Virus record (IMG/VR): IMGVR_UViG_3300030101_001149
Coordinates: 1 to 31,997 of that record
Length of the DNA stretch: 31,997 nt
Origin: a virus
Strand: one strand, 5' to 3'
Shown: piece after piece, positions 3,561 to 25,197 of the stretch
Position numbering within the stretch: position 1 is the stretch's first letter
How the letters are laid out: every line of letters begins with the position of its first letter
Translations under genes and position numbers: made by a program
The notes under the pieces: generated by a model
What the model saw: only the letters and a program-made list of their open reading frames with translations
Told to the model about the DNA's origin: nothing
Databases searched by the model: none

Positions 3561-4050
3561 CATAAAACTATTTAACCTACAACAAGAAATAGGTACAATA
3601 AGTAAGGATGCAAAGAATCCTTTTTACAAATCAAAATACTTTGATATTAATTCATTAATTAAACAACTACAACCTCTACTTAAAAAACACAAATTACTTT
3701 TATTACAACCGATAGAAGAAGATTGTGTTTATAGTAAGTTAATTTGTATTGATGGTACAGGTGGTGTAATATCAGCACTTAAATTACCAGAAATATCTGA
3801 TCCACAAAAGTTAGGTAGTTGTATAACTTATTATCGTAGATATACTTTGGCAAGTCTTTTAGGCTTACAAGCTGTTGATGATGATGCAAATGTAGCAAGT
3901 GGTGTAACCGTAGATAAGAAATGGTTAAACCAGAACACACCTGAATATTCTAAAGCAATAGAATTTATAAAAGGGGGTGGTAGTGTAGAAGCTATTAAAA
4001 GCAAGTATAAAGTTTCAGGTAAAATAGAAAATGAACTTGCAAAACTGTAA
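3541..4050 (+). CDS. erf: ERF-family single-strand annealing protein
   Basis: A 169-residue protein of the ERF superfamily of phage recombinases (PF04404-like), which anneal complementary single strands in recombination-dependent replication and genome circularisation. The N-terminal landmarks NPFYKSKYFDINSL (26-39) and LQPLLKKHKLLLLQP (43-57), and the diagnostic KLGSCITYYRRYTLASLLGL (90-109) followed by DDDAN (113-117), are all present. The C-terminal about 50 residues are variable and basic, as in other ERF proteins. Neighbours are an SSB-like protein downstream and a RecE-like exonuclease further on, its usual functional partners. Confidence 0.9.
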   Translation: MKETNVNIKLFNLQQEIGTISKDAKNPFYKSKYFDINSLIKQLQPLLKKHKLLLLQPIEEDCVYSKLICIDGTGGVISALKLPEISDPQKLGSCITYYRRYTLASLLGLQAVDDDANVASGVTVDKKWLNQNTPEYSKAIEFIKGGGSVEAIKSKYKVSGKIENELAKL

Positions 4051-5535: not shown

Positions 5536-5747
5536 TAGTAATAATATTTTTACTAATTATATGTGCAATTTATTTAATTATAGGTCAGGTAAAAAATGCT
5601 GATGTAATTATAAGTCCTGTAATTGGTATGATGTTTGGTTTTTTATATAGCAAAGAAGAATTAGAAGAAGGTAACGAGATCACCTTGCAGTGTTTGTTGG
5701 GTGTAATTAGTGTTACTGTAATATGGACAAATCTGCACAATGGTTAG
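5532..5747 (+). CDS. Small membrane protein, TTG start
   Basis: A 71-residue protein starting at TTG 5532, which overlaps the helicase stop (TTGA). Residues 2-18 (IVIIFLLIICAIYLIIG) form one TM helix. Two weaker hydrophobic stretches follow (27-40 and 55-67), separated by an acidic loop, KEELEEGNE. It ends inside the next gene with 25 nt of overlap. I do not recognise it. Possible roles include membrane anchoring of replication or an exclusion function, but nothing in the sequence decides this. Confidence 0.55.
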   Translation: MIVIIFLLIICAIYLIIGQVKNADVIISPVIGMMFGFLYSKEELEEGNEITLQCLLGVISVTVIWTNLHNG

Positions 5748-6271
5748 CAAAGGTAGCTGAAAGGCATACTGAATGGGTTAATGTTATTAAAGGTTTTGGT
5801 GAATATGAATACGCTGAAGATTTGGTGCAGGAAACGTATTTAATTTTATACAAGTATGCAAATAAAGAAAAGGTTATTAAAGATGGTATTGTTAGCAGGG
5901 GTTACTTATATTTCACTTTACGTAGCACTTACTTTCAGTTTTATAAGAATAAAAGGAAGATTAAAAAGGTTTCTATCGACAATGAGGAATATACCAAAGA
6001 AGTGGAGGACAATACAAACTTGGATGAAGAAGTAGCCTACAATAAAATTTGCACAATGATAGATGACCACATAGAAGATTGGAGATGGTATGAAAAAAAA
6101 CTATTTACTTTATACAGGGATTCTGGTTTAAGTATAAGGGGAATAGCAAAAGAAACTAATATAAGTTGGGTTAGTATATTTAACACATTAAAAAATGCAA
6201 AACACGAATTAAAACAAAAATTCCAAGATGATTGGAGTGATTTAAAAAATAAAGATTATGAACGAATATAA
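5723..6271 (+). CDS. Sigma-70-like (ECF-type) transcription factor
   Basis: A 182-residue protein with the layout of an extracytoplasmic-function sigma factor. EYAEDLVQETYLILYKYAN (29-47) resembles region 2.1-2.2, and RGYLYFTLRSTYFQFYKNKRK (59-79) resembles the end of region 2. An acidic linker (90-105) leads to a helix-turn-helix, GLSIRGIAKETNISWVSIF (135-153), as in region 4. It could redirect host RNA polymerase to phage promoters, or act as a DNA-binding regulator if the core contacts are lost. Its position between replication genes suggests early synthesis and control of middle or late genes. It overlaps the next gene by 14 nt. Confidence 0.7.
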   Translation: MDKSAQWLAKVAERHTEWVNVIKGFGEYEYAEDLVQETYLILYKYANKEKVIKDGIVSRGYLYFTLRSTYFQFYKNKRKIKKVSIDNEEYTKEVEDNTNLDEEVAYNKICTMIDDHIEDWRWYEKKLFTLYRDSGLSIRGIAKETNISWVSIFNTLKNAKHELKQKFQDDWSDLKNKDYERI

Positions 6272-8339: not shown

Positions 8340-8390
8340 AATAGCGGAAGCCGAAAAGCTAATAGAGTAGGCAAACAAAAAACAAGAACA

Positions 8391-9137
8391 ATGAACAAAC
8401 AAGAATTAAAAATTGGGATATTTGAGGTAATAGATATTTCTAAAATTAAACCAAGTGAGTATAATAGAGATATAGATGATAATCACGTTATAAAACAAGG
8501 AGAAAGTTTAAGTGAACTTGGATGGGCAAGTGCTTTGACAGTAGATAATCAGTACAATTTAATGGATGGTCATCACAAGTATAATTGGTGTTTAAAAAAC
8601 AAACAAAATAAAGTACCTGTTTACCGTATGTGGTGGTTAGATAATTTATCAGGTAAAGAAGTGTTATCCGTTATTTTAAAGTTAAATGCTAAAACTTTAA
8701 ATTGGAAACCTGAAATGTTGTTATCCAGATATGGTAAATTAGATAATGATTATCTTTTAGCTGATGAAGCACAAAGATATTACGGTGTTAAAAATATGCC
8801 TCCATCTACATTAATATATGCATTTTTTAATAAAGCAAGTAGTACTGTTAAATTTAGAGAGGGTAGGTGTAAAATAGTTAATTTTAAATTTGCTCATAAA
8901 ATTCTTAATGAACTTTCAAGATTAAGAAACGAATACGGTAATAGTATGGTACAAGGTTCACCGATGAGAGAAATAGCAAGACAATCTCATATTTGTTACA
9001 AAAAAAATGTATCATTATTTGACTTCTTAATTGATGAGTATGAGGATATGTTAAAATCAAATCACCCATATACAAATAACATTAAAGAGTTAAGAAAATA
9101 TCTTGACAAAAAAATAAAGAGGAATGCAAAAGAATAA
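8391..9137 (+). CDS. ParB/Srx-fold protein paired with a methyltransferase
   Basis: A 248-residue protein. The N-terminal 100 residues look like a ParB N-terminal (ParB/sulfiredoxin) domain: ISKIKPSEYNR (16-26), then a central helix, then LMDGHHKYNWCLKN (57-70), the counterpart of the ParB box with its Gly-His-His. The rest (PEMLLSRYGKLDNDYLLADE, MPPSTLIYAFFNKASS) is helical and may bind DNA. It overlaps the methyltransferase gene by 14 nt, and such ParB-methylase pairs are common in phages. Known ParB-box phage proteins include nucleases and NTP-dependent clamps; which one this is cannot be said. It is preceded by the A-rich leader that recurs in this block. Confidence 0.75.
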   Translation: MNKQELKIGIFEVIDISKIKPSEYNRDIDDNHVIKQGESLSELGWASALTVDNQYNLMDGHHKYNWCLKNKQNKVPVYRMWWLDNLSGKEVLSVILKLNAKTLNWKPEMLLSRYGKLDNDYLLADEAQRYYGVKNMPPSTLIYAFFNKASSTVKFREGRCKIVNFKFAHKILNELSRLRNEYGNSMVQGSPMREIARQSHICYKKNVSLFDFLIDEYEDMLKSNHPYTNNIKELRKYLDKKIKRNAKE

Positions 9138-9864
9138 AATATATAATGAGGATTGTATGCATACTATGAAACGTATGCAAGATAATTTTGTAGATATAGT
9201 AGTTACTTCTCCTCCTTATAATATAGGTAAAGGGAGAAGAAATGGTAATGATTCCAAATCTTTATCCTATGATACTTATAGTGATAACTTACCAATAGAT
9301 GACTATTTTAAGCAAACAAGTTTGTGGATAGATGAATTATATAGAACAACAAAGTATCATATATTTTATAATATTCAAGAAGTTTCAGGAAATAAAGGAA
9401 TAATAAATTATATAATGAGTAATTATAAAGATAAAATAAAACATATTTTTTTTTGGTGCAAACCTAATCCTCCAAGCAAAATACTTGATACAGGAGTTGC
9501 TAACGGTATAGAGTATATCTTTTGCATATCAAAGGACAATCCATCTAAACAAAATTTTAACTATTGTAACTTTTCTAATTACAAAGGTGATTATATTAAA
9601 AATGTTATAATAAAACCTGTTAATTCTGATAAGGAAACTAATGGGCATAACTTTGCATTTGGTGATTGGTTACCAAAACATTTTATAAATTATTTTTCTA
9701 AAAAAGGAGATGTAGTATATGATCCGTTTATGGGAACAGGTACAACTGCAAAAGCATCTCATTTACTAAAGAGAAATTGGATAGGTTCAGAAGTATCAGA
9801 AAAATATATAGAATTATCTAATAAAAGATTAAAACCATATTTAGATCAACTAACTTTATTTTAA
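9124..9864 (+). CDS. Orphan DNA methyltransferase (beta-class N6-A/N4-C)
   Basis: A 246-residue S-adenosylmethionine-dependent DNA methyltransferase. The catalytic motif IV, TSPPYN (28-33), is N-terminal and the AdoMet-binding motif I, DPFMGTGTT (200-208), is C-terminal, the beta-class order. A nearby variable region (about 36-60, 110-180) probably holds the target recognition segment. There is no restriction endonuclease next to it, so it is an orphan; protection from host restriction or regulation is likely. The N6-adenine versus N4-cytosine target cannot be read from SPPY alone. It overlaps the ParB-like gene and ends the cassette just before the structured region at 9865-9972. Confidence 0.9.
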   Translation: MQKNKIYNEDCMHTMKRMQDNFVDIVVTSPPYNIGKGRRNGNDSKSLSYDTYSDNLPIDDYFKQTSLWIDELYRTTKYHIFYNIQEVSGNKGIINYIMSNYKDKIKHIFFWCKPNPPSKILDTGVANGIEYIFCISKDNPSKQNFNYCNFSNYKGDYIKNVIIKPVNSDKETNGHNFAFGDWLPKHFINYFSKKGDVVYDPFMGTGTTAKASHLLKRNWIGSEVSEKYIELSNKRLKPYLDQLTLF

Positions 9865-9886
9865 TGATAAAAAAAGGATGAATAAC

Positions 9887-9967
9887 AAAAACCAACCTAT
9901 GTTCTTTATATTTGTTAGTAAATAGTCATTACTAACTGAATAAGAGTTTTTGGTTGGTTCTCTTATT
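9887..9967 (+). promoter_or_regulatory. Structured promoter/leader with three inverted repeats
   Basis: TATATTTG at 9907-9914 is a perfect -7 element, but no clear -33 TTTG lies 19-21 nt upstream. GTTAGTAA (9914-9921) is repeated in inverse as TTACTAAC (9929-9936). This 8-bp repeat spans the expected start site, as an operator or leader hairpin would. AATAAGAG (9939-9946) pairs with CTCTTATT (9960-9967). The loop of that hairpin contains GGTTGGTT (9952-9959), the complement of AACCAACC (9890-9897). The region lies directly upstream of the 66-residue gene and the DnaA-like gene. Confidence 0.6.
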
Positions 9968-9972
9968 ATATT

Positions 9973-10173
9973 ATGAATAAAAAATTAATAGAAGAATTTT
10001 ATTTACTTGCTTTAGTAGATATAGTAAATGGTAAAGATATAGCAGAACTTGAAGAAACAATAAAACTATATGAAAAAGAAGAACACTATGAAGCGTGTGC
10101 AGGAATACAAAAAGCAATACACGAATCAGGATATTTAACAATTAAAGAAATAATAGAAAGAAACAAATTATAA
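9973..10173 (+). CDS. Small acidic helical protein
   Basis: A 66-residue acidic protein predicted to be two or three helices (EEFYLLALVDIVNGKDIAEL, then ETIKLYEKEEHYEACAGIQK). There is no TM segment and no metal site. It is the first gene after the structured promoter region and lies 9 nt before the DnaA-like gene, so the two are co-expressed. By charge and size it could bind a partner protein or mimic DNA; I cannot assign a function. Confidence 0.7.
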   Translation: MNKKLIEEFYLLALVDIVNGKDIAELEETIKLYEKEEHYEACAGIQKAIHESGYLTIKEIIERNKL

Positions 10174-10182
10174 AAATAAATT

Positions 10183-10578
10183 ATGAGTATACAAATAATA
10201 AAAGAAGTAGTAGAACAACACTTTGATATAGACATAACAAAAGATACAAGAAAACGTGAATATGTAGAAGCACGTGCAATGTATTTTAATTTAGCAAGAG
10301 ATTATACAAGAATGTCATTATCAGTAATAGGCAAAACAGTATATAGGGATCATACAACGGTACTGTACTTTTTAAAACAATTAAGAGATTGGATGTTACA
10401 CGATTATCGTTTAAAGCAAGATTACGATACAATAAACAAAAGAGTACAAGATGCAATACACGCTAACCCTGAAGAATTTAAAACAGCAGTTACAATAGAA
10501 GGTTTCTATGAAACACAATACAAACGTTTAAAGGAGTTAACAGAACAAATTAATAAAGACCAATTAGTAATTGATTAA
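10183..10578 (+). CDS. Stand-alone DnaA domain IV-like DNA-binding protein
   Basis: A 131-residue protein that matches only the C-terminal, DnaA-box-binding domain of the bacterial initiator. It has REYVEARAMYFNLARDYTRM (25-44), SLSVIGKTV (46-54) and RDHTTVLYFLKQ (55-66). RDHTTV is the DnaA signature that contacts the TTATnCACA box. The ATPase domain III and the DnaB-loading N-terminus are missing. It could mark a phage origin, recruit host DnaA/DnaB or compete with the host initiator. It lies close to the structured intergenic region. Its 3' end overlaps a degraded gene start (TTG at 10571). Confidence 0.85.
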   Translation: MSIQIIKEVVEQHFDIDITKDTRKREYVEARAMYFNLARDYTRMSLSVIGKTVYRDHTTVLYFLKQLRDWMLHDYRLKQDYDTINKRVQDAIHANPEEFKTAVTIEGFYETQYKRLKELTEQINKDQLVID

Positions 10579-10679
10579 AGTAAACTCTTTATCTGGTGGT
10601 AAAACAAGTTCATACATAGCAGCTAACTATATTTGAAGATGACTTTAATGAATGTGATTCTGGTTATTGTGGTATTTAA
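10571..10679 (+). pseudogene. Remnant of PAPS-reductase-like gene (both ends, middle deleted)
   Basis: The frame from TTG 10571 reads VNSLSGGKTSSYIAANY before a stop at 10634. This is the PP-loop start typical of phage phosphoadenosine-phosphosulfate-reductase-like proteins (SGGKTS binds the phosphate). One base out of frame, 10632-10679 reads FEDDFNECDSGYCGI then stop, which resembles the Cys-containing C-terminal end of the same family. Intact members are roughly 250-300 residues. So the interior seems to have been removed by a deletion that also shifted the frame. The 8-nt overlap of the TTG start with the DnaA-like gene is like other junctions here. The C-terminal match is from memory of the family and less certain than the N-terminal one. 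Confidence 0.65.
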
Positions 10680-10701
10680 CAATAAATAAAAAAAAGTATT
10701 G

Positions 10702-10723
10702 TATAATTGAATCATTAATGATT
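10702..10723 (+). promoter_or_regulatory. Possible promoter/operator before terminase
   Basis: TATAATTG (10702-10709) is one mismatch from TAnnTTTG. It abuts a perfect 14-bp palindrome, AATCATTAATGATT (10710-10723), followed by T8. The palindrome could be an operator or a weak A/T-only terminator. There is no clear -33 element. Confidence 0.35.
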
Positions 10724-12736: not shown

Positions 12737-12943
12737 ATGGAAGCGTGTTGGTACGAAAAGATATACATAGTACAAAGACCATCTAAACGTGGTGGTAGGG
12801 CTTCTGATGTTTATTTAGATATAAGCGTTAATGGTCAAGTTCTAAAAGGTAAGAAGCTGTACAAACAAAACAGCATACATTTAGAAAAAACAATAGAAGA
12901 AGCATACAAATATTCATATAAAAGGTTTATATTGAAGCAATAA
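12737..12943 (+). CDS. Unknown 68-residue protein
   Basis: A basic 68-residue protein, MEACWYEKIYIVQRPSKRGG at the start and YKYSYKRFILKQ at the end. The chosen start is ATG 12737; the in-frame TTG at 12719 lies within the upstream gene. It lies 4 nt after the upstream gene and 27 nt before a terminator, so 12547-12943 is probably a two-gene unit. It has no recognised domain; it may be a small beta-plus-helix protein. Confidence 0.65.
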   Translation: MEACWYEKIYIVQRPSKRGGRASDVYLDISVNGQVLKGKKLYKQNSIHLEKTIEEAYKYSYKRFILKQ

Positions 12944-12970
12944 CTTTTCATTTGGTTTGGGTTGAGAATT

Positions 12971-13000
12971 AGGTAGCAGAAATGTTACCTTTTTCTTTTT
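12971..13000 (+). terminator. Rho-independent terminator
   Basis: AGGTAGCA (12971-12978) pairs with TGTTACCT (12983-12990), with one G-U pair, around a GAAA tetraloop. TTTTCTTTTT follows. It lies 33 nt before the ATG at 13033. This rules out the ATG at 12982, which lies within the hairpin, as the start of the next gene. Confidence 0.85.
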
Positions 13001-13032
13001 ATACAAAACACCAATTAATTTATTGTATTAAT

Positions 13033-24582: not shown

Positions 24583-25197
24583 ATGAAAGCAACAGATATG
24601 TTAAACAAAGTAAAAGAGGTTCTTGGGGTAGAGTTATCCGAAGCACCTGTAGAAGTAAAGTTGGCACAAGCTGAACTTGAAAACGGTACAATTATAGAAA
24701 GCGAAAATTTTGAAGCTGGAAATGAAATATTTATTGTTACCGAAGATGAAAAAGTAGCAATGCCTATAGGTGAGTACAAACTTGTAGATGGTGAATCTAT
24801 AATTGTAGAAGAAGAAGGTATTATTGCTTCTATTGGTGCAGTTGAAGAAGCACCAGAAGAAGAAGTAGAAGCTGCTGAAGAAAAAGAAGAAATGAACTAC
24901 GCTACTAAAGAAGAACTTGCAGAGGTTAAAGAAATGGTTGAAGAAATAAAATCAATGCTTGAACCAAAAGAAGAAATGGCAGAAGAAACTGAAGCTGAAA
25001 ATTCTATAAAATCAGAAGAAACAACAACAAAAACTGTTTATGCTGAAAAAGAAGAATTAACAACAGAAGAACCTGTTGAGAAAATAAAACATAACCCTGA
25101 AAAGGAAACAAAGAAAGTAATGAATTTGTATGGACAAAAAAGAACACAAACGACATACGATAGAGTGCTTTCAAAAATAGCTAATCTTAAAAATTAA
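24583..25197 (+). CDS. Scaffold-like acidic capsid assembly protein
   Basis: A 204-residue, strongly acidic protein immediately upstream of the major capsid gene. Residues 25-85 form a small beta domain (VKLAQAELENGTIIESENFE, then GNEIFIVTEDEKVAMPIGEY). An acidic helical coiled coil (about 88-130, NYATKEELAEVKEMVEEIKS) follows, and then a basic C-terminus (MNLYGQKRTQTTYDRVLSKI). An acidic, helical protein with a basic end preceding the capsid gene is the usual layout of a scaffold. It would guide capsid assembly and be removed by the S78-type protease. Confidence 0.7.
   Translation: MKATDMLNKVKEVLGVELSEAPVEVKLAQAELENGTIIESENFEAGNEIFIVTEDEKVAMPIGEYKLVDGESIIVEEEGIIASIGAVEEAPEEEVEAAEEKEEMNYATKEELAEVKEMVEEIKSMLEPKEEMAEETEAENSIKSEETTTKTVYAEKEELTTEEPVEKIKHNPEKETKKVMNLYGQKRTQTTYDRVLSKIANLKN

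Follow-up and report, generated by a model that had tools for sequence, protein, structure and literature searches.

Genomic context of the methyltransferase/DnaA-domain junction

The window analyzed here is the whole of IMG/VR virus record IMGVR_UViG_3300030101_001149, 31,997 nucleotides in length. Among named phages, its terminase is matched best by Flavobacterium phages, at 48% identity, and we regard the phage as a marine Flavobacterium-type. On the plus strand, an N6_N4 DNA methyltransferase gene (9124 to 9864) is followed after a 108-nt spacer by a gene of unassigned function encoding 66 amino acids (9973 to 10173) and by a gene for a 131-residue protein with a Bac_DnaA_C domain, corresponding to DnaA domain IV (10183 to 10578). 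Relatives differ in the genes 5′ of the 66-aa gene but always have the 66-aa and DnaA-domain genes themselves, which identifies an exchangeable cassette, ending with the methyltransferase, beside a conserved block that begins with the 66-aa gene. Between the two lies a junction element of approximately 90 to 95 nt (9878 to 9972, plus strand), bracketed by copies of the direct repeat ATGAATAA at positions 9878 and 9973.

Several other features were observed around the cassette. A DUF805b RNA (RF02914, 48.7 bits), the only Rfam match in the window to reach its gathering score, is located at 8341 to 8373, directly 3′ of the exonuclease gene and on the upstream edge of the variable cassette. The motif is also present in L007, L009, L028, L032, L037, and L039, ahead of differing genes, and a match below the cutoff (35.1 bits) occurs in record L054 near the methyltransferase of that phage; this RNA may mark the cassette-exchange site at its 5′ end. 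Within 8391 to 9864, a ParB-like gene and the methyltransferase gene overlap by 14 nt, and since both encoded proteins match the DNA methyltransferase family PHROG 498, the pair may correspond to a fused enzyme in split form. Downstream, at 10571 to 10712, we observe an apparent scar of a deleted gene, in which both ends of a 282-aa gene are joined and some 730 nt are missing. This gene is intact at 3684 to 4532 of L348, a contig from a second phage described below, and the intact protein has no match in Pfam.

Inverted repeats and predicted folds

A preliminary description of this stretch had reported three 8-bp inverted repeats in the spacer, the first crossing the third, and both statements hold. 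Helix 1 pairs AACCAACC (9890 to 9897) with GGTTGGTT (9952 to 9959), helix 2 is a GTTAGTAA/TTACTAAC hairpin (9914 to 9936; arms 9914 to 9921 and 9929 to 9936) with a 7-nt loop, and helix 3 is a AATAAGAG/CTCTTATT hairpin (9939 to 9967; arms 9939 to 9946 and 9960 to 9967) whose loop contains GGTTGGTT and which ends 5 nt upstream of the start codon of the 66-aa gene. Counting perfect 8-bp repeats with loops of up to 60 nt, at least three per 108 nt are found in 0.9% of random sequences at the composition of the window and in 3.8% at that of the region itself, and the 32-kb window contains four such clusters; the repeats by themselves are therefore only mildly unusual. No Rfam family matches 9865 to 9972, even at E values of up to 5, no intrinsic terminator is seen, and the conserved core motifs of an integron attC-like site were absent on inspection by eye.

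The 108-nt region folds with a z score of −3.5 on the plus strand, where it ranks 8th of 886 windows of the same size, and −4.1 on the minus strand, and it includes an imperfect 87-nt palindrome that is stable on both strands. Lower scores were recorded at 24985 to 25164, 12925 to 13032, and 9073 to 9252, with the minimum of −6.0 at 24985. In both phages, the computed nested fold is dominated by helices 1 and 2 (P of approximately 0.97), and helix 3 has a probability near 0. When 9890 to 9897 is blocked, helix 3 forms with P of 0.92 to 0.95 in the 87-nt element of either phage, and with P of only 0.57 when a longer segment of the window is folded. Repeats 1 and 3 thus behave as alternatives, as had been suggested, being mutually exclusive in the computed nested folds of both phages. 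The idea that RNA reading through the spacer could switch between two folds gains from the appearance of helix 3 once the arm is blocked, which makes such a switch possible, and is weakened by the advantage of several kilocalories per mole that the fold with helices 1 and 2 holds over the fold with helix 3. Judged by anatomy, a pseudoknot in which helices 1 and 3 are both present is also conceivable: the arms follow the order a, b, a′, b′, with a 41-nt first loop containing helix 2, a 5-nt second loop, and zero nucleotides separating the 3′ arms.

A homologous element in a second phage

A scan for GAGTTTTTGGTTGGTT recovered one further phage, represented by two contigs (L348 and L359) that are 100% identical over 6,112 nt. 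Its element (L348, 2984 to 3075) occupies the same junction, behind a different methyltransferase from that of the window. At 88%, identity between the two elements exceeds that of the flanking 66-aa gene (77%) and of the genes for the DnaA-domain protein (66%), the terminase (73%), and the exonuclease (79%). On its own, the L348 element folds only modestly better than shuffled sequences (z = −1.4).

The elements align over 87 ungapped columns with 11 substitutions. Because the helices had been named from the window alone, conservation of their pairs in L348 provides an independent test, and all 24 of the 24 pairs are still standard pairs there: helix 1 is unchanged, helix 2 carries two changes to G-U, and helix 3 carries one double compensatory change from A-U to C-G. 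When 11 changes are placed randomly, all pairs survive in 0.34% of trials (P = 0.0034), and at least one compensatory double change is expected with P of 0.13; both values refer to a single pair of sequences, the window and L348. The covariation looked for in relatives amounts to one double and two one-sided changes within two sequences. Retention of the pairs supports the view that the repeats form part of a genuine structure under conservation, as far as can be judged from sequence.

Further searches returned little else. Exact searches with the 16-mer GGTTGGTTCTCTTATT gave the identical contig plus only unrelated contexts, those with GTTAGTAA..TTACTAAC gave common, contextless matches, and those with AAACCAACCTATGTTC gave unrelated and mostly coding-looking matches. 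BLAST searches of the region against phage and plasmid records returned nothing meaningful.

Occupied and empty junctions

In every one of approximately 20 distinct relatives, the start of the 66-aa gene coincides with the end of the preceding gene or falls within its final codons, leaving no spacer. The element is carried by 3 of 40 related records, equivalent to two phages, with one copy per carrier genome and none in the other related records. The nearest sisters of the window (L019 and L020), up to 98% identical over 615 columns of the block, have no spacer, and a tree built from the block places the two carriers in distant positions, each with noncarriers alongside. In L052 to L054, a methyltransferase of the same family as that of the window (74 to 77% identical) directly precedes the 66-aa gene, and L032 is the empty-site counterpart of L348, in which the 66-aa gene immediately follows a similar methyltransferase end. 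A link between the element and the methyltransferase was considered and rejected, as these phages have the same methyltransferase families and no element, and the two carriers have differing methyltransferases.

It had been noted beforehand that relatives lacking the repeats would refute the proposal. The spacer is absent from nearly all of them; L348 keeps all 24 pairs. The absence points to a patchy, movable element and not to a conserved region controlling the DnaA-like gene. Patchiness together with an identity exceeding that of the flanks calls for horizontal movement, strong constraint, or both; transfer in recent times, and not constraint, may account for the higher identity, and independent losses in all other lineages are less likely.

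Possible mobility raises the question of whether this is a selfish REP- or MITE-like palindromic element, inserted at a ATGAATAAA site and without a role for the phage. The patchy occurrence on the block tree, the same insertion point behind different genes, the imperfect palindrome stable on both strands, and the ATGAATAAA direct repeats 92 nt apart in L348 would all fit. Moreover, Rickettsia palindromic elements (RPEs), units of about 150 bp that are missing from the corresponding sites of some relatives, show that an open frame can be part of such an element (PMC10969869). However, each genome holds a single copy at a single site, and other copies are absent from the 40 related records and from two Bacteroidota sets of approximately 395 genomes, in which a model of the element gave zero matches in a search run without a positive control. 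At the same gene pair, L348 is occupied and L032 empty. The ATGAATAAA repeats coincide with the conserved start of the 66-aa gene, however, and may have served as mere microhomology in cassette exchange. We consider a purely selfish element quite improbable.

A prophage source was also rejected: across 396 genomes from the order to which a Winogradskyella genome belongs, the 66-aa family yielded a single marginal, partial match, and the element model matched neither these nor 395 genomes of the phylum (the same search, without a positive control).

Promoter, operator, and origin functions

The preliminary description had placed a promoter, and possibly an operator or part of a replication origin, at the repeats. 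The TATATTTG sequence at 9907 to 9914 does overlap the second repeat, sharing its first base, and is a perfect match to the −7 consensus of the Bacteroidetes primary sigma factor, TAnnTTTG (PMC6847099, PMC9723704). A promoter with a dyad operator serving the 66-aa and DnaA-domain genes would account for this overlap of box and perfect dyad. However, TAnnTTTG occurs at chance frequency, with 26 matches on the plus and 29 on the minus strand of the window (55 in total), the box is lost in L348, where it reads TATATCTG, and the relatives have no room for a promoter at this junction. TTG at the −33 spacing from TATATTTG is absent, which is not decisive because promoters of Flavobacterium johnsoniae show only a weak −33 motif (PMC6847099). 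Were transcription to start near 9920, the RNA would be without the 5′ arms of helix 1 and helix 2, so the promoter and the switch are mutually exclusive. As for the operator, repeat 2 survives in L348 only through its two G-U pairs and is thus retained as RNA and imperfect as a DNA dyad, and no second copy was found in the window. This combination of promoter and operator is very unlikely. The phage also encodes a sigma-factor-like protein (5723 to 6268; phrog_1740, E = 3e-10), so some of its promoters may depart from the host consensus.

An origin bound by the DnaA-domain protein is suggested by the position 210 nt upstream of the DnaA domain IV gene and by the AT-rich hairpin. Yet the TTATCCACA box is absent from the window, which holds just two relaxed boxes, both distant; GC skew does not change at the element; and the element is missing from nearly all relatives that retain the DnaA-domain gene. 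This role can for practical purposes be dismissed.

Coding potential

The L348 element is an uninterrupted 31-codon frame (MNKNQPTFFISVSEQSLLTQSEFLVGSLIIL) that starts immediately 3′ of the methyltransferase stop and runs into the 66-aa gene through an ATGA overlap. The same frame in the window (9878 to 9976, plus strand) reads MNNKNQPMFFIFVSK*SLLTE*EFLVGSLIIL* and is interrupted by two in-frame stops, TAG at 9923 to 9925 and TAA at 9941 to 9943, before the TGA at 9974 to 9976 that overlaps the next ATG. A minimal frame, MIKKG* (9864 to 9881, plus strand), begins on the methyltransferase stop (TAATG).

These observations would be expected if the locus held a small gene, some 31 codons long and coupled in translation to both neighbors, which is still complete in L348 but has decayed in the window through two nonsense changes, the palindromes being by-products. 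Consistent with such a gene, the frame in L348 is open all the way from the methyltransferase stop to the ATGA overlap, the elements differ in length by 3 nt, which keeps the frame, and the L348 frame is 80% identical to the broken one. On the other side, the substitutions spread 3/3/5 over codon positions 1, 2, and 3, with the two stops among them, so coding explains the conservation poorly, and the retention of all 24 pairs (P = 0.003) is not what a by-product would predict. Moreover, the frame has zero protein relatives in Pfam, phage records, or 386 loci, and by rough reckoning an open stretch of 31 codons arises by chance in several percent of cases, which is not rare. A decayed small gene is possible, if on the unlikely side, and would make this an ordinary matter.

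A candidate tuner of translational coupling

Our preferred reading, to which we tentatively assign a probability of roughly 0.42, is that of a palindromic junction element of about 90 nt that has moved between phages and acts within read-through mRNA. It sits exactly between the exchangeable methyltransferase cassette and the block of 66-aa and DnaA-domain genes, where, as read from its sequence and position, it is probably a tuner of translational coupling. Free of ribosomes, the transcribed element would adopt one long hairpin of helices 1 and 2, without helix 3. Ribosomes leaving the methyltransferase gene would cover the 5′ arm and allow formation of helix 3 at a distance of 5 nt from the start codon; another possibility is that helices 1 and 3 stand together as a pseudoknot. 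The element could in this way substitute for the direct stop-start coupling seen in relatives and lost in the window, and adjust how strongly the 66-aa and DnaA-domain genes are translated, the replacement taking the form of a 31-codon bridge in L348 and of a gap with hairpins in the window. In Flavobacterium johnsoniae, initiation proceeds without Shine-Dalgarno sequences, and structure close to the start codon is linked to lower initiation (PMC6847099), which makes a hairpin 5 nt before the ATG a plausible tuner.

A bolder version, which we think improbable, would see here a new family of mobile palindromes in marine flavophages, combining a reading frame with an RNA switch or pseudoknot, traveling independently of the genes on either side, marking the downstream border of DNA-modification cassettes and recoupling translation across it. 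More generally, this phage group swaps genes, including DNA methyltransferases, at one hot spot with the operon kept translatable. Found exactly at the border and seeming to move independently of both neighbors, the element would be a concrete case of how translation may be kept in register after such swaps in hosts without Shine-Dalgarno use.

Comparison with known systems

Three known systems resemble parts of the element. Similar to erm-type, ribosome-mediated translational attenuators with leader peptides (PMC11264731), it has a short upstream frame running over one arm and hairpins predicted to be mutually exclusive, the second beside a start codon. In contrast to such attenuators, it has no inducer, its leader length differs between the two phages, and its start-adjacent helix needs an occupied 5′ arm. 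With the stop-start (ATGA) coupling of phages it shares the ATGA that L348 retains through the element, and relatives couple directly, whereas coupling in the window is broken by stops and the 108-nt gap. Like RPEs, MITEs, and REPs, it is short, palindromic, and frame-bearing, occurring at some sites and missing from relatives; unlike them, it is single copy, intergenic rather than intragenic, and confined to one constant junction, and a family of dispersed copies was not found. With no dispersed copies found and ribosome stalling only hypothetical, the element fits neither the attenuators nor the mobile palindromes, and we prefer to leave it unclassified, as a structured junction element of which two members are known.
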